A stretch of 34,431 bases of DNA, from positions 1 to 34,431 of IMG/VR virus record IMGVR_UViG_3300042294_001138; one strand, written 5' to 3'. Of this stretch, positions 9,587-21,198 are shown piece by piece. The position numbers were made by a program, and so were the translations under genes. The notes beneath the pieces are model-generated. The model was not told the origin of the DNA. It saw only the letters and a list, made by a program, of their open reading frames with translations, and did no database searches. The stretch comes from a virus. The first letter of the stretch is position 1. Each line of letters opens with the position of its first letter.

Positions 9587-9985
9587 ATGTTTCCATTAGC
9601 CGCTTTATTCGAGATCGGTAATAAGTTAATTGACAAACTTATTCCAGACCCAGAGGCTAAAGCCAAAGCTCAGCAAGAGCTAATTAAGCTACAGCAAGAG
9701 GGTCGGTTAGCTGAACTCAATGCCGATAACATTGAGGCCCAGGAGCTGACCAAGCGGCAACAGGCCGATATGGCTAGCGACTCCTGGCTATCTAAAAATA
9801 TACGGCCAATGACTTTAATCGCTATTCTCGGCGGTTACTTTATCTTTGCTAGTCTCTCGGCTGGCGGGGTTGAAATCAAAGAGGCTTATGTTAAATTACT
9901 GGGTGAGTGGGGTATGCTTATCATGTCATTTTACTTTGGTGGGCGTACACTAGAGAAAATTATTGACATGAAAAACAAGAGATGA
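9587..9985 (+). CDS. Holin, 3-TM family (GTA holin-like)
   Basis: This 132-aa protein has an N-terminal amphipathic segment (LAALFEIGNKLIDKLIPDPEAK), a glutamine/glutamate-rich helix to about residue 60, then SWLSKNIRPMTL and two hydrophobic segments (about 80-95 and 108-120). The pattern, especially IPDPEAKAKAQ and the WLxxxxRPM motif, matches the Holin_3TMs family first described in gene-transfer agents. Holins pierce the inner membrane and release or activate the endolysin. The endolysin start overlaps this stop by four bases (ATGA at 9982), a tight lysis cassette. Confidence 0.9.
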   Translation: MFPLAALFEIGNKLIDKLIPDPEAKAKAQQELIKLQQEGRLAELNADNIEAQELTKRQQADMASDSWLSKNIRPMTLIAILGGYFIFASLSAGGVEIKEAYVKLLGEWGMLIMSFYFGGRTLEKIIDMKNKR

Positions 9986-10587
9986 TTACCTCAGAATTAC
10001 TAGCCCAGATGGGTATCAATCCATCTTGGTTAGCGCCGTTACATGAAACGTTTGAGCGGTACGCAATCAACAATCCCAACAGGGTTGCTGGCTTTCTTGG
10101 CCAGACCGCGCATGAATCAGCAAACTACAAAACACTTCAAGAGAATCTAAACTACTCGGCCAATGGTTTGATAACCGTATGGCCAGTACGCTTTCCCAAC
10201 TTTGAGACCGCTGAGGAGTATGCCCGTCAGCCTGAGCGCATAGCTAACAAGGCCTATGCAAACCGTATGGGTAACGGCGATGAGGATTCTGGAGACGGCT
10301 GGCGGTACCGTGGGCGCGGCATTATCCAGATCACAGGGCGCGAGAACTATGAAAAGCTATCGGATTCGATTGGTCAAAATTTTTTAGGAGAGCCCGACCT
10401 TTTACTTGAGCCACGCTGGGCGGCCATGTCGGCTGGGTGGTTCTGGGATACGCGTAGGCTCAATGCCCTATGCGATAAGAAAGACTGGTTAAATCTGACG
10501 CAGAGAATTAATGGCGGTCTGCATGGTATCAATGACAGAACCGCCAAGATTAAAAAAGCCCTAGCTCTCCTGGGCGATACCGTCTAA
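9982..10587 (+). CDS. Endolysin, GH19 chitinase-like lysozyme
   Basis: The 201-aa protein carries the GH19 catalytic signature: GQTAHESANYKTLQEN, with the likely acid Glu45 in AHES, and YRGRGIIQITGRENY at about residues 109-123. This family cleaves the N-acetylmuramic acid/N-acetylglucosamine backbone of peptidoglycan. No signal peptide is present, consistent with release through the adjacent holin. The last 27 bases overlap the 3' end of the opposing ERF gene. Confidence 0.95.
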   Translation: MITSELLAQMGINPSWLAPLHETFERYAINNPNRVAGFLGQTAHESANYKTLQENLNYSANGLITVWPVRFPNFETAEEYARQPERIANKAYANRMGNGDEDSGDGWRYRGRGIIQITGRENYEKLSDSIGQNFLGEPDLLLEPRWAAMSAGWFWDTRRLNALCDKKDWLNLTQRINGGLHGINDRTAKIKKALALLGDTV

Positions 10588-13361: not shown

Positions 13362-13549
13362 TTTTGGTTTCTCCTTTTGATGCTGTTAACAAATCGTTCG
13401 GCCATGCGCTCGCGGCGCTTGCGTTGCCAGCGGATATAAAACTGACTGTTACTGATTTGCATCCAGGCTATGAATCCAAATAAGCCTAAGATGACTAACG
13501 TACCTACAGAAAAAACCACGATGATTACTGCATTGATAAGGTCTGGCAT
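13358..13549 (-). CDS. Small single-TM protein with basic tail (63 aa)
   Basis: I chose the ATG at 13549 (MPDLINAVIIV), which has GAGGAG upstream; a longer frame exists inside the recombinase gene. Residues 5-30 are a long hydrophobic segment (VIIVVFSVGTLVILGLFGFIAW). The rest is strongly basic (RWQRKRRERMAERF), so by the positive-inside rule the tail is cytoplasmic. It overlaps the recombinase end by 25 bases and the next small TM gene by four. The function is unknown. Confidence 0.65.
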   Translation of the reverse strand: MPDLINAVIIVVFSVGTLVILGLFGFIAWMQISNSQFYIRWQRKRRERMAERFVNSIKRRNQK

Positions 13550-14190
13550 TTCATTCTCCTCATAAGTTTGCCCACCTGGGCTGGATGCCAATGGTCGTAG
13601 CCGTTGGCGGTCTTAACACCGCGAACCTCAAGCTCACGGGCTATCTCACGCAAGTTGGTGCCAACACGCGCTACGATATCGTTTACAACTGGTGTTACCT
13701 TCTGGGTAAATTGGTTACCTTTTGCAACCAAGGCCTCTGCGCCACGCTTAGAGCCGAGTAAAGGGTTAGGGCTACCGAGTTTTACGCCACGCTCTTTGGC
13801 GGCCTGTAAAGCGGCTTTGGTGCGCTCTGAAATCTTACGGGCTTCCCATTCAGCAAACACAGCGGCCATCTGTAGGAATGTGCGGTCAGCCTCTGGCATA
13901 TCTGCGGCTACGAACTGCACGCCAGACTCTAAAAGGCCAGAGATAAAGTGAACGTTACGAGCAAGACGGTCTAGCTTTGCAATAACCAATGTGGCTTTCT
14001 TAGCCTTGGCTAGTGCTAGAGCTTGCGCGAGCTGTGGGCGGTCAGACTTGCGGCCTGACTCAACCTCTGTGAACTCTGCGATCAGCTCTTTACCAGCTGT
14101 AAAGTTCTGTACCGCAGAACGTTGGGCCTCAAGGCCAAGGCCTGACTGGCCTTGACGTTGAGTGGATACGCGATAGTAGGCTACGTACAT
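13525..14190 (-). CDS. Small serine recombinase (resolvase/invertase type)
   Basis: The 221-aa protein has the catalytic Ser9 in AYYRVSTQRQG, the conserved arginines in AKLDRLARN (about 72-79), and the E-helix motif FAEWEARKISERTKAAL (about 111-127). A C-terminal DNA-binding part contains LREIARELEVRGVKT and HPAQVGKLMRR. It lacks the long C-terminal domains of large serine integrases. Such enzymes cut and rejoin DNA at short dyad sites for inversion, resolution or integration. Its target is not visible: I found no pair of inverted crossover sites. It lies early in the leftward operon. Confidence 0.93.
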   Translation of the reverse strand: MYVAYYRVSTQRQGQSGLGLEAQRSAVQNFTAGKELIAEFTEVESGRKSDRPQLAQALALAKAKKATLVIAKLDRLARNVHFISGLLESGVQFVAADMPEADRTFLQMAAVFAEWEARKISERTKAALQAAKERGVKLGSPNPLLGSKRGAEALVAKGNQFTQKVTPVVNDIVARVGTNLREIARELEVRGVKTANGYDHWHPAQVGKLMRRMKCQTLSMQ

Positions 14191-17965: not shown

Positions 17966-18214
17966 ATGAAATATGAAATGAAAGAAGGCAGTTTTAGCTT
18001 ATTTGTAAATGATAAAAAGCGTGATGAGAAAGATGCAGATTGGTCTGGCACCATCAAGCTAGCCGATGGGGTGGAGTATTGGTTTAATGGCTATGCCAAA
18101 GTAACCAAGACTGGCCGTAACTACATCTCTGGCAAGATCGGCAAACCAAAGCAACAGGGTTTTACGCCACGGGGTAACGATGAAATGCCTCGCGATGGGG
18201 ATGTACCCTTCTGA
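17966..18214 (+). CDS. Small OB-fold/SSB-like protein with acidic C-terminal tip (82 aa)
   Basis: The body is beta-rich: GSFSLFVNDKKRDEKDADWSG, IKLADGVEYWFNGYAKV, YISGKIGK. This is a pattern seen in small phage and plasmid proteins of OB-like type. The last residues, PRDGDVPF, mimic the acidic tip of bacterial SSB (consensus DDDIPF), which recruits replication and repair proteins. Placed between the replication initiator and terminase small subunit, it likely coats single strands or diverts host SSB partners. The tip is seen directly, the fold is inferred. Confidence 0.7.
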   Translation: MKYEMKEGSFSLFVNDKKRDEKDADWSGTIKLADGVEYWFNGYAKVTKTGRNYISGKIGKPKQQGFTPRGNDEMPRDGDVPF

Positions 18215-18636
18215 TGCCTAAAGTCAAAGCACAGATATCGAGCCAGATTCCATCCCTACAGAACTGGGGTGGGATTCGCTCGATCCAGAAGAGGTTAGAG
18301 CGTAGTGCGACTATTGCAGAGAACCGTGAGGCGGTAGCCTACAGTCTGCTTTGCATGGCCAATACTAAGATTACTGACATTATGGAGTGGGATGAGGATG
18401 GCAAGATTCAAGTAAAAGCCAGTAAAGACATTCCAGAACACGCCCTACAAGCCATCAAGAGTATTAAAGTTAATAAGGATGGTAATTTAGAGTTAGAGCT
18501 GTACGATAAGGTTGGCGTATTGAGATTACTGGCTAAGGCTAGTGGACTTTTAGATAACCCAGAGGATTCTGATAAACCGTCTGTGATTGGAATCAACATT
18601 AAGGCCCCAGACGTAACCGATGTGGAGATACCATGA
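18214..18636 (+). CDS. terS: Terminase small subunit
   Basis: The 140-aa protein has a basic N-terminus, a helical region (LERSATIAENREAVAYSLLCMA), then KITDIMEWDEDGKIQVKASKDIP and KVNKDGNLELELYDKVGVLRLLAKASGLL. The last two blocks are the usual C-terminal signature of Terminase_2-type small subunits. It recognises phage DNA for packaging by the large subunit. The two subunits are unusually far apart here: terL begins at 21278, with six small rightward genes and a leftward pair between. Start and stop are coupled to both neighbours. Confidence 0.82.
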   Translation: MPKVKAQISSQIPSLQNWGGIRSIQKRLERSATIAENREAVAYSLLCMANTKITDIMEWDEDGKIQVKASKDIPEHALQAIKSIKVNKDGNLELELYDKVGVLRLLAKASGLLDNPEDSDKPSVIGINIKAPDVTDVEIP

Positions 18637-18830
18637 TTGAGCTATTAGTTGCATATCTGCTATACGAGGGTGGCGCTGGAGCGGAGTGGTGGCTACTGTT
18701 TGCCGTTTTGTTTGCTTTTAAAGTAAATCATATTTATAAAAATATGAAACGAGAGCAAGAAGAACAGTTGCTCATTAAAAAGATTATTAATGCCGAAGTT
18801 GTCAGCAAAGATATCTCTTCAAATCATTAA
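18633..18830 (+). CDS. Small membrane protein (65 aa)
   Basis: It is coupled to terS by ATGA overlap. Residues 2-32 contain hydrophobic segments (LLVAYLLYEGGAGAEWWLLFAVLFAF), probably a hairpin or one TM. A charged coil follows (NMKREQEEQLLIKKIINAE). Its 3' end overlaps the next membrane-protein frame by 41 bases. The function is unknown. Confidence 0.6.
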   Translation: MIELLVAYLLYEGGAGAEWWLLFAVLFAFKVNHIYKNMKREQEEQLLIKKIINAEVVSKDISSNH

Positions 18831-19029
18831 GTGGGCTGGTACCGCTCTTTGCCTGGTCGGCATAGCGCTGACCAGTTTTAATATTTATCCGCTCAATATC
18901 TTTCTATCTTTGGTTGGCTCTGGTCTTTGGACTGTGGCCGCAATACAACAGAAAGACGCGCCATTATTTTTGGTTGAGCTAGTAGCTGTGGTACTGTACT
19001 GCATGGGGGTAATGGCATGGATGGGATGA
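18790..19029 (+). CDS. Small multi-spanning membrane protein (79 aa)
   Basis: Three hydrophobic segments are visible: IIKWAGTALCLVGIALTSF (about 12-30), NIFLSLVGSGLWTVAAI (about 35-52) and LFLVELVAVVLYCMGVMAW (about 59-78). A short basic N-terminus precedes the first. The KW...TSFNIYPLNI...GSGLW...K pattern is shared by small phage membrane proteins I have seen annotated only as hypothetical. The stop overlaps the next ATG. It may act at the host membrane early in infection, but there is no direct evidence. Confidence 0.7.
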   Translation: MPKLSAKISLQIIKWAGTALCLVGIALTSFNIYPLNIFLSLVGSGLWTVAAIQQKDAPLFLVELVAVVLYCMGVMAWMG

Positions 19030-19208: not shown

Positions 19209-19221
19209 TTTTATTTTTATA

Positions 19222-19298
19222 TAACTTTTAAGTTGTAATAATGGATATTAAAGTAACTTTTAAGTAGCATTAACCCACTTAAAGTAACATTTATGAGC
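19222..19298. repeat. AT-rich direct and inverted repeats, possible operator/promoter
   Basis: TAACTTTTAAGT occurs at 19222-19233 and 19254-19265, 32 bp (about three turns) apart. An inverted, slightly shortened version begins at about 19278 (ACTTAAAGTAAC). The repeats lie in the 115-base gap upstream of the leader ORF and secreted-protein gene. A regulator-binding cluster or promoter is plausible; no clear -35/-10 pair was identified. Confidence 0.4.
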
Positions 19299-19323
19299 CA
19301 TTAAGTTCTAACGTGAGGAACAA

Positions 19324-19398
19324 ATGATAATTAAATCTGAGTTTTGGCATATCTTACAAAAGCACATTGCCCTTAGAAAGGGTAAAAATGTGCAATAA
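19324..19398 (+). CDS. Possible leader peptide (24 aa)
   Basis: The ATG at 19324 is preceded by GAGGA at ideal spacing, one of the better ribosome sites in the window. The frame encodes MIIKSEFWHILQKHIALRKG plus four residues and ends at 19398, overlapping the ATG of the secreted repeat protein (19388) by 11 bases. A short ORF with a strong site that ends just inside the next gene is typical of translational coupling or attenuation. It could be simple chance. Confidence 0.4.
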   Translation: MIIKSEFWHILQKHIALRKGKNVQ

Positions 19399-19687
19399 AT
19401 CCTACATTTTTTTATTCTTGCTAGGGTTTCATGTAACGGCTAGCGCCCAAACAAATATCTACAAGGGCGCGCTGAATCTACCAGCTGGCTACTCTGTACA
19501 GATCGGCAATACGGTTCTCTACTCGGATGCTTTAAATCTCCCTTTGGCCTACGAGCAGAAAATCGGCAGTACGTCTATTTACTCTGACGCTCTAAATCTA
19601 CCGTTAGGAGCTAAGGTACAGGCGGGGCCTGAGCCGTATTTGCCGCCCACTAAAACCAATTTCTATACGATCTATGACGAACGATGA
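19388..19687 (+). CDS. Secreted protein of three 20-residue repeats (99 aa)
   Basis: The ATG at 19388 has AAAGGG upstream; earlier in-frame starts are weak. Residues 1-20 are a signal peptide (KSYIFLFLLGFHVTASA) with predicted cleavage before Gln21. Residues about 24-80 are three near-identical 20-residue units, each with Y-(S/K)-(D/G)-ALNLP followed by a variable half and (Q/K)-(I/A)-G, aligned at residues 24, 44 and 64. A proline-rich, tyrosine-containing tail ends the protein. The beta-repeat form suggests binding to an envelope component. I recognise no family. Placement among early genes hints at an envelope-directed function in infected cells. Confidence 0.75.
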   Translation: MCNKSYIFLFLLGFHVTASAQTNIYKGALNLPAGYSVQIGNTVLYSDALNLPLAYEQKIGSTSIYSDALNLPLGAKVQAGPEPYLPPTKTNFYTIYDER

Positions 19688-19691
19688 ATGT

Positions 19692-19754
19692 ATGGTTTTT
19701 GCGTTAGTCGTAGTAACGCTTTGGACTTTAGCTCTCTGGCTATTGATAGATTAA
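19692..19754 (+). CDS. Possible 20-residue membrane peptide
   Basis: ATG to TAA encodes MVFALVVVTLWTLALWLLID, essentially one transmembrane segment, starting five bases after the secreted-protein stop. No clear ribosome site was found and two other short frames start nearby. It is listed because a purely hydrophobic peptide is unusual at random, but it could be chance. Confidence 0.25.
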   Translation: MVFALVVVTLWTLALWLLID

Positions 19755-19775: not shown

Positions 19776-19840
19776 TGTGGGCTGTTTAGGGAAAGAAGCC
19801 AGCAAAACCTAAACCTGGCACGTGAAACCAGTTGCCCACA
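19776..19840. ncRNA. Predicted three-way-junction RNA structure
   Basis: Three nested/adjacent perfect stems fill the 65 bases. P1 is TGTGGGC (19776-19782) with GCCCACA (19834-19840). P2 is GTTTAGG (19784-19790) with CCTAAAC (19808-19814). P3 is CTGG (19815-19818) with CCAG (19828-19831). P2 and P3 abut with no linker; one base separates P1-P2 and two separate P3-P1. The element lies between convergent genes and has no U-run on either strand, so it is not a standard intrinsic terminator. It may be an RNA element, a 3'-end protector or a recombination site. Confidence 0.5.
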
Positions 19841-19846
19841 AATTGA

Positions 19847-20218
19847 TTATAGCTCTAATGGGTCGAACGATCCAAACTCTACAGCGATCATTTTGGCTCT
19901 GGCTCTGAACTTAGCATCGTGCCGCTCCCACCCAGCTTGACCAGTTTTATTAACTGGCTCAGCCCAGCGCGAGCAATGTATCATTTCATGGGCAATCGTG
20001 GCCACGCAAGTTAGATAGTGCGACAAACGCTTTCTTGAGATGGTAATTACGTGCGGAATCTCAGCGGCCTCATCATAGAGGTACGTACCCAATGCGTCAT
20101 TATCGTTATTTACGATAAAGCGGCACAGCTCCACGGGCGGCATATTCCATTTATTGAATGGGTGCAACTTGCAAAGCGTGATGTATGTATCCTCTAGGAA
20201 TGTAGCGTTTAATTTCAT
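19847..20218 (-). CDS. SprT-like zinc metallopeptidase (123 aa)
   Basis: The zincin motif HEMIH is at residues 77-81 (TIAHEMIHCSRW), and a later WERHDAKFRARA segment (His100) offers the third zinc ligand. The length and the C-terminal HDAKF region match SprT-like proteases, relatives of which degrade DNA-bound proteins. In phages the substrate is unknown; clearance of protein from DNA during replication is a reasonable hypothesis. It is coupled to the phosphoesterase upstream by ATGA, forming a two-gene leftward unit. Confidence 0.88.
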   Translation of the reverse strand: MKLNATFLEDTYITLCKLHPFNKWNMPPVELCRFIVNNDNDALGTYLYDEAAEIPHVITISRKRLSHYLTCVATIAHEMIHCSRWAEPVNKTGQAGWERHDAKFRARAKMIAVEFGSFDPLEL

Positions 20219-21198
20219 ACCCGATTAATACAACCTCTAAATTCAACCTCACCGTCTCCGCATACTTGTACCAACTCTGGCATCAGTAAACGACCCTCTT
20301 CAAAGGATAACAGAGCAAATCCAGAACGCCAGTTGCGGGGGTGGTCTTCCATGTACGCAAACTGAGTAGCGAGCGGATCAGCTAGGGTGCCAGTCTGTAC
20401 CCCATAACGCGTGCCGTTCATATCTGACCAAGGCTGTACGGCTAATACGTGGGTGTGGCCTGTAATCATATTGACCCCAGATTGGAGCGTGTTATTGTGG
20501 CCAGCAGTCCAACCACCCTTCCAGCGGTGCTTAATGCAAGTATCCTCATTAACCCAGTAGGAGTAACATGGTTTCCACATGGGGAAGTGGTCTTTTAGGC
20601 TAGTGCCTGGCAATCCTTCTAGGGCTGGAGCGTTATTAACGATGTACCCTTCCATCCGACTGTCATGGTTTCCCAGAGTCCAGATGAGTTCAGCGCCCTT
20701 AGCAACCTTTTCAATCTCGCCCATGAAATACTGGCAAGCCTCTAGTTCTTGCTTGACCGTAGGCAGTACGCTCCAATCCAGACGAGGGAACCTTGATACG
20801 CTAGCCCCATCGAACATATCGCCATTAGCCACAATAACCTGGGGTTTAAACTCTTTAATAAAAAACAACAAGGCTTTAAAAGCAGTTGTAAAGTTGTCTG
20901 GCCAGAAGTGGGCATCTGAGAATACGATTATTTTGCCCTTCTCCATCTCTCGGCCGCGTCTAACATGGCCATCGGTTTGATCTATTTTGGTTAATCTTTC
21001 TTTTTTGGGTCTTTCTTTTTTTGCATCTCGTTGAGAGTTGAATGTTTCTAGCTTGATTCCGTGCCTTGTTTCTATTGCGAGTCTGCGATTCATAACCGAT
21101 CTTGGACTCATTTTGTTGGCAATACCCATTAATTTGGGAGAGCCGTGTTTACTCCATTCCGCTATAAACTGCTCATCTGTAAGATAGTAGCCAGCCAT
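20215..21198 (-). CDS. Calcineurin-like metallophosphoesterase (327 aa)
   Basis: All core motifs are present: SDAHF (Asp95, His97), NGDMFDG (Asp127), GNHDSR (Asn177-His178) and GHTH (247-250). Residues 1-85 form a basic extra domain containing a short helix-turn-helix-like part (DEQFIAEWSKHGSPKLMGIA, then SPRSVMNRRLAIE). It could tether the enzyme to DNA. Family members are phosphodiesterases or phosphatases acting on nucleic acid or nucleotides. Together with SprT it suggests a DNA-processing pair. Confidence 0.9.
   Translation of the reverse strand: MAGYYLTDEQFIAEWSKHGSPKLMGIANKMSPRSVMNRRLAIETRHGIKLETFNSQRDAKKERPKKERLTKIDQTDGHVRRGREMEKGKIIVFSDAHFWPDNFTTAFKALLFFIKEFKPQVIVANGDMFDGASVSRFPRLDWSVLPTVKQELEACQYFMGEIEKVAKGAELIWTLGNHDSRMEGYIVNNAPALEGLPGTSLKDHFPMWKPCYSYWVNEDTCIKHRWKGGWTAGHNNTLQSGVNMITGHTHVLAVQPWSDMNGTRYGVQTGTLADPLATQFAYMEDHPRNWRSGFALLSFEEGRLLMPELVQVCGDGEVEFRGCINRV

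Follow-up and report, generated by a model that had tools for sequence, protein, structure and literature searches.

A phage gene between TerS and TerL encodes a predicted secreted protein of three 20-residue hairpin repeats, a probable mobile-element cargo

Organisation of the locus

The window analysed here is the whole 34,431-nucleotide stretch of the IMG/VR virus record IMGVR_UViG_3300042294_001138. Its TerL shares 77% identity with the TerL of the OM43 phage MEP301 (Methylophilales phage; PMC8024684), and we infer a betaproteobacterial host. The TerL of this phage was not found in 151 Polynucleobacter genomes, a search that is uninformative about the host because it was run without a positive control. 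For a MEP301-like phage, the presence of a serine resolvase gene (Table 1) might indicate that it can exist in a temperate or plasmid-like form.

The gene under study, P0001, is part of a variable accessory block found between TerS and TerL, and lies outside the virion-gene block. An earlier note on this DNA, made from the letters alone, had correctly placed it outside the virion genes, but its assignment to an "early/mid operon" was too loose for a gene situated between TerS and TerL. The 99-residue translation consists of the five parts listed in Table 1, in that order. The frame is also open upstream of its ATG, back to a TTG at 19367; however, the ATG at 19388 is the likelier start, because AAAGGG lies just 5' of it and it overlaps the stop of a 24-codon frame. 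The opposite strand contains stops throughout.

The signal peptide, the three units of strict 20-residue period and the proline-bearing tail that the note had described are all borne out: a hydrophobic N-terminus ends in ASA followed by Q, exactly three units of 20 residues follow, and the C-terminus PEPYLPPTKTNFYTIYDER contains proline. Cleavage is predicted after residue 20, at a point that is kept in the homologues as A/Q or A/E. There is no lipobox cysteine, and the mature protein has no cysteine, no second hydrophobic segment and no tryptophan. On these sequence features, signal peptide without lipobox, P0001 looks exported.

Table 1. Features of the P0001 locus and of other parts of the window
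Feature	Position	Strand	Sequence	Basis or remark
GTA_holin_3TM and GH19 endolysin	9587-10587			Pfam
Serine resolvase	13525-14190	-		Pfam
TerS	18214-18636			Pfam
DUF6552 protein	18790-19029			Pfam
Direct repeats, AT-rich non-coding	19213-19311		core AAAGTAACWTTTAAGT	kept in relatives
24-aa ORF	19324-19398	+	MIIKSEFWHILQKHIALRKGKNVQ	stop overlaps P0001 start (ATGTGCAATAA)
P0001, secreted (predicted) three-unit repeat protein	19388-19687	+	the five parts below	translation, homologues, purifying selection
P0001 signal peptide, predicted type I	19388-19447	+	MCNKSYIFLFLLGFHVTASA	hydrophobic core then A-S-A
P0001 repeat unit 1, predicted hairpin 1	19448-19507	+	QTNIYKGALNLPAGYSVQIG	period 20; AlphaFold2 strands 2-6, 12-19
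P0001 repeat unit 2, predicted hairpin 2	19508-19567	+	NTVLYSDALNLPLAYEQKIG	period 20; AlphaFold2 strands 22-27, 32-39
P0001 repeat unit 3, predicted hairpin 3	19568-19627	+	STSIYSDALNLPLGAKVQAG	period 20; AlphaFold2 strands 42-47, 52-57
P0001 C-terminal tail, Pro-containing, predicted disordered	19628-19684	+	PEPYLPPTKTNFYTIYDER	pLDDT <50, mature residues 64-79
26-aa hydrophobic ORF	19674-19754	+	MTNDECMVFALVVVTLWTLALWLLID	start inside last P0001 codons
63-nt element	19777-19839	+	GTGGGC...GCCCAC	three-way-junction fold
SprT-like	19847-20218	-		Pfam, just under cut-off
Calcineurin-like phosphoesterase (MPE)	20215-21198	-		Pfam

Repeat periodicity and selection

The period-20 self-score of mature P0001 is 81, far beyond the maximum of 29 obtained in 20,000 shuffles when the highest value over all periods from 8 to 35 was taken. 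The units have 10-12 of 20 residues in common, and their DNA is identical at only 32-34 of 60 positions; the repeat is therefore an old one at the protein level rather than a recent duplication of the DNA.

The four closest IMG/VR relatives (L001-L004) are 85-95% identical to P0001, and the disrupted frame that the note had named as a reason for doubt is seen in none of them, since all four keep the frame and the three units. P0001 is under strong purifying selection in its relatives, with mostly silent substitutions: pN/pS is 0.04-0.19 among P0001 and these four near relatives (five sequences) and 0.05-0.31 within a second phage clade.

Homologues in phages and bacterial islands

A profile built from five close copies and run against 80 TerL-bearing contigs matched L027-L032, L036 and L040 with E values of 1e-10 to 1e-21, and a degenerate DNA pattern for the repeat unit added L092, L096, L097 and L098. 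The homologues in these dozen related viral contigs are about 35-47% identical to P0001 and hold the same position, between TerS and the SprT/MPE/TerL block (L098 ends before TerL). Several sister contigs with the same flanks have no such gene (for example L015-L017, L020, L024, L033-L035 and L037), which marks the P0001 gene as optional cargo. In a second scan by pattern, the layout of signal peptide, three units and Pro/Gln tail came up in L137, L139 and L141, in L138 and in L140. These represent three other phage gene contexts, and the stretches read in L137-L141 contained no detected homologue of the 20 window proteins tested. The relatives in other phages are likewise found in accessory regions, and the unit number is three in every phage copy seen. 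The note knew of no phage family with this design; that the design stands alone is not supported, as the layout recurs in the three further phage groups and in genomic islands of Polynucleobacter. Sporadic presence might point to a gene of host origin that is decaying and has no function, but this is scarcely credible in view of the intact frame, the pN/pS values of 0.04-0.31 and the exact conservation of three units; the selection test refutes this explanation unless the alignments are wrong.

In bacteria, the unit DNA pattern matched 11 contigs among 84,980 species genomes, mostly from Polynucleobacter or other freshwater Burkholderiaceae/betaproteobacteria, with two from Lentisphaerae; unlike this degenerate pattern, an alignment-based scan of the species-genome contigs for P0001 gave no match. 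The bacterial protein in L107 is 44% identical to P0001 over 72 aa, and a profile comparison with a bacterial homologue reached a probability of 99.3% (E 6e-21). Searched with the phage profile, 14 of 151 Polynucleobacter genomes contain a member of the family; the only match of this profile in an order-level pool of 399 genomes was G003, the centre genome itself, joined by two near-threshold matches in a phylum-level pool of 398. Most Polynucleobacter copies have three units and two members have four. Repeat proteins of these islands with the unit GNTTYYSDANGMPxGTAQ (L099, L104, L105, L107 and others), which are unnamed, resemble P0001 in having a signal peptide, three units of 20 and a low-complexity Pro-containing tail. 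They differ in the tip, mostly ANGMP where P0001 has ALNLP, and in being chromosomal and near tyrosine recombinases.

Such a recombinase lies less than 6 kb from the gene in eight of the ten Polynucleobacter genomes inspected and within about 11 kb in one more. Each of these genomes has only 3-10 tyrosine recombinase matches in about 2 Mb, and the sequence within 6 kb of one would, by a rough expectation, make up about 4% of the genome; the ten loci are not all independent, as island genes are common to several of them. Several of the islands contain type I restriction-modification genes. A plasmid search for P0001 relatives returned nothing. In a tree, phage and bacterial copies fall on opposite sides of one branch (support 90/88), so that a single transfer, in either direction, suffices. 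The bacterial copies may serve the island or the host in another way.

These distributions bear on two further explanations. The distance of less than 2 kb to TerL, and the frequency of short beta repeats in virion proteins, might suggest a virion or tail-associated protein such as a decoration protein or a receptor-binding helper. We consider this very improbable, since P0001 carries a Sec-type signal peptide and the assembly of phage virions is cytoplasmic. In addition, its gene is not part of the structural block, sister contigs that have the same packaging genes lack it, and homologues are present in bacterial islands of genomes without a detected TerL of this phage. An envelope factor of the lysis stage, spanin-like or involved in lysis timing, would fit the signal peptide, the adjoining 26-aa hydrophobic frame and a phage in which a holin and an endolysin (Table 1) but no spanin were recognised. 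Spanins, however, need a lipobox and/or a transmembrane segment as well as a coiled coil, and P0001 has none of the three; it is also 9 kb from the lysis genes, optional in sister phages and present in bacterial islands, and we regard a role in lysis as improbable.

Predicted fold

The AlphaFold2 model of P0001, based on 27 aligned homologues, folds mature residues 2-57 into six strands forming three hairpins, with pLDDT mostly 83-90. Each unit is predicted to comprise a strand, a turn at D/G-A-L-N-L-P, a second strand and a turn at G-N/S. The structure prediction that the note had recommended, in search of a beta-solenoid or a beta-hairpin stack, thus yields three consecutive beta-hairpins.

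A six-unit homologue from Lentisphaerae is modelled with 12 strands in the register of P0001 (pLDDT 94.9). In the PDB this model is matched best by 1ZXU (Z 10.8, rmsd 2.6 over 106 residues; next Z 8.9), a Tubby-like structure that has been compared with beta-flowers (PMC10584680), which points to the beta-flower clan. Against PF21786 (6-fold beta flower) the same homologue reaches 25.9 bits, under the cut-off of 34. The three-unit model of P0001 itself gives weak PDB matches, the best being OspA sheets at Z 5.5, with 1ZXU at Z 4.4. Foldseek returned no PDB match under E 0.001 for this model and one viral match, an uncharacterised 91-aa phage protein (TM 0.67). Matches of P0001 in a PDB profile search (designed propellers and similar) were judged to be chance.

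Because the six-unit homologue has a 12-stranded predicted fold that matches 1ZXU and has a score, under the cut-off, against PF21786, the model of P0001 looks like half a beta-flower. The constant presence of three units suggests, in a step that we infer, that the protein works with this number, perhaps by contributing one half of a six-petal barrel formed by a dimer. Across the phage units, Leu occupies position 9 in 49 of 51 and position 11 in 45 of 51, and the bacterial units mostly have Asn and Met at these two positions. The leucines of the phage copies therefore mark the ALNLP core as a hydrophobic hairpin tip.

Comparison with known families

P0001 has no match in PHROGs, Pfam or NCBIfam, and hence no strong match to a virion or enzyme family in these libraries; such a match would, according to the note, have spoken against its reading. 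"Unknown family" is accurate to this extent, but P0001 is not an orphan, having homologues in phages and bacteria. Among annotated phages, the match H1 was antisense to a hypothetical gene and the matches H17 and H18 had E values of 7; all were dismissed as chance. The family of predicted secreted three-hairpin proteins is conserved and real and is named by no curated library searched; its unit belongs with the hairpin repeats that build beta-flower and Tubby-like folds, of which P0001 represents a three-unit variant.

Beta-flowers (Pfam PF21784-PF21786, clan CL0395) were described from models by Durairaj et al. in 2023; they have 4-6 hairpins with [DNEQ]XXG at the tips, a hydrophobic channel and hydrophobic residues at the petal tips, and half-flower hits were noted for the fold (PMC10584680). 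We found no experimentally assigned function of beta-flower proteins in the literature. P0001 resembles them in its predicted short hairpin petals with hydrophobic tips. It differs in having three units in the monomer instead of 4-6, a plain signal peptide, a predicted disordered tail and the tips GALN, DALN and DALN in place of [DNEQ]XXG, and it has no match to the models PF21784-PF21786. The [DNEQ]XXG motif is found at the tip in several phage relatives (DALG) and in most bacterial ones (DANG, NANG).

Choline-binding repeats (PF01473, PF19127) are likewise hairpin repeats of about 20 residues, and some bacterial members of the family score weakly to moderately against them (best Choline_bind_1, E 2e-7). 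Together with the link of beta-flower and Tubby-like barrels to lipids (PMC10584680), this speaks for a protein of benefit to the host or active in adhesion, which would bind carbohydrate or lipid in a choline-binding-like or Tubby-like manner and would be carried by mobile elements for reasons other than phage competition. P0001, in contrast, lacks the tryptophan of the choline-binding cage and any match to the choline-binding models, and the gene is sporadic in bacteria (14 of 151) and selected in phages; a host-benefit role is conceivable rather than likely.

Proposed role of P0001

The predicted export, the non-virion position, the optional presence, the recurrence in unrelated phages and the proximity to recombinases argue for a mobile-element cargo acting in the envelope, and it is highly likely that P0001 is a secreted three-hairpin cargo protein of this kind. 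Small exported phage proteins are known to bring about superinfection or surface exclusion; an example is T4 Spackle, which is made early, resides in the periplasm and inhibits the lysozyme domain of the tail protein gp5 (PMC7677548). As a small phage-encoded periplasmic protein, Spackle offers a model by analogy for a possible role of P0001, and no sequence relation between the two was found. Spackle is helical, and its absence from the structure matches listed for P0001 excludes nothing. Exclusion of other phages or masking of a receptor, as the note had suggested, is compatible with our results. Exclusion is the leading proposal on the grounds of location, predicted export and mobile-element association; as the actual function of P0001, superinfection exclusion is conceivable rather than likely.

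We propose the following hypothetical scenario in which (i) the P0001 gene would be cargo of the "moron" type in a MEP301-related aquatic phage; (ii) the protein would be exported via the Sec pathway and lose its signal peptide; (iii) the mature protein would form three consecutive beta-hairpins, arranged as a single sheet of six strands with an ALNLP motif near each hairpin tip, and would end in a flexible tail; (iv) the three units would represent half of the six-petalled beta-flower predicted for six-unit homologues, and the likely working form would therefore be a homodimer with six petals or a half-barrel on a hydrophobic partner; (v) a membrane or a ligand would be contacted by the leucines that are conserved close to the tips; and (vi) acting in the periplasm or at the inner face of the outer membrane, P0001 would most probably alter the entry of other phages or mobile elements through superinfection or surface exclusion. 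This complete explanation, combining moron-type cargo, half-flower and exclusion at the envelope, is the best we can offer and is put forward tentatively. More speculative, and in our estimation unlikely, is the generalisation that a hitherto unrecognised class of exclusion factors is common to the phages and the integrative islands of freshwater betaproteobacteria, namely secreted half-beta-flowers of exactly three hairpins that close into a six-petalled envelope barrel and block the entry of competing phages or mobile elements.

In the context of beta-flowers, P0001 is a compact three-unit version, apparently secreted and kept under selection by mobile elements, and offers a small testable system for what these folds do and whether half-flowers pair. 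If exclusion holds true, it would add a periplasmic exclusion factor to phages of abundant aquatic bacteria.

Small frames and non-coding elements near P0001

Upstream of P0001, the AT-rich non-coding stretch holds three direct repeats of about 26 nt at a spacing of 31-32 bp, which look like iterons or operator sites and possibly mark a replication origin. The 24-aa frame that follows is probably translationally coupled to P0001. Whether or not the repeat gene is present, this frame is 72-100% conserved in many sister phages, and it represents an unannotated microprotein; it occurs in L001, L002 and loci without P0001 (for example L015-L017, L020, L034 and L035) and is missing from L003 and L004, where P0001 takes over its ribosome-binding site. 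The 26-aa hydrophobic frame is 96-100% conserved in L001-L004, and none was seen in more distant relatives. Both frames are thus inconstant partners of P0001.

The 63-nt element just 3' of the P0001 gene is identical in the window, L002, L003 and L004, whereas L001 has a single extra base at the edge of the element; it is thus near-constant although the coding parts differ by about 10%. The 96 nt around it have a folding z of -3.3, and the element has no Rfam match. It is possibly a new structured RNA or a processing site, with a possible pseudoknot (GCCAG/CUGGC).

In L028, L031, L032, L036 and L040, a 58-residue frame (MNKLLRVWLCQCACLYAVT...VKRVSATS) with a signal-peptide-like start lies about 940 bases upstream of TerL. 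As this frame overlaps the phosphoesterase region of the opposite strand, it is perhaps no gene at all. Upstream of TerL in the sister phages L068, L069, L072, L074 and L076, a small Cys-rich, repeat-like protein with a signal-peptide-like start is encoded (for example MKYLIALWLAATATMSYAACTYNTYCSGGQCVYCTTCCYGGNCNTTCN), which from its sequence may be exported cargo of another kind, again close to the packaging genes.
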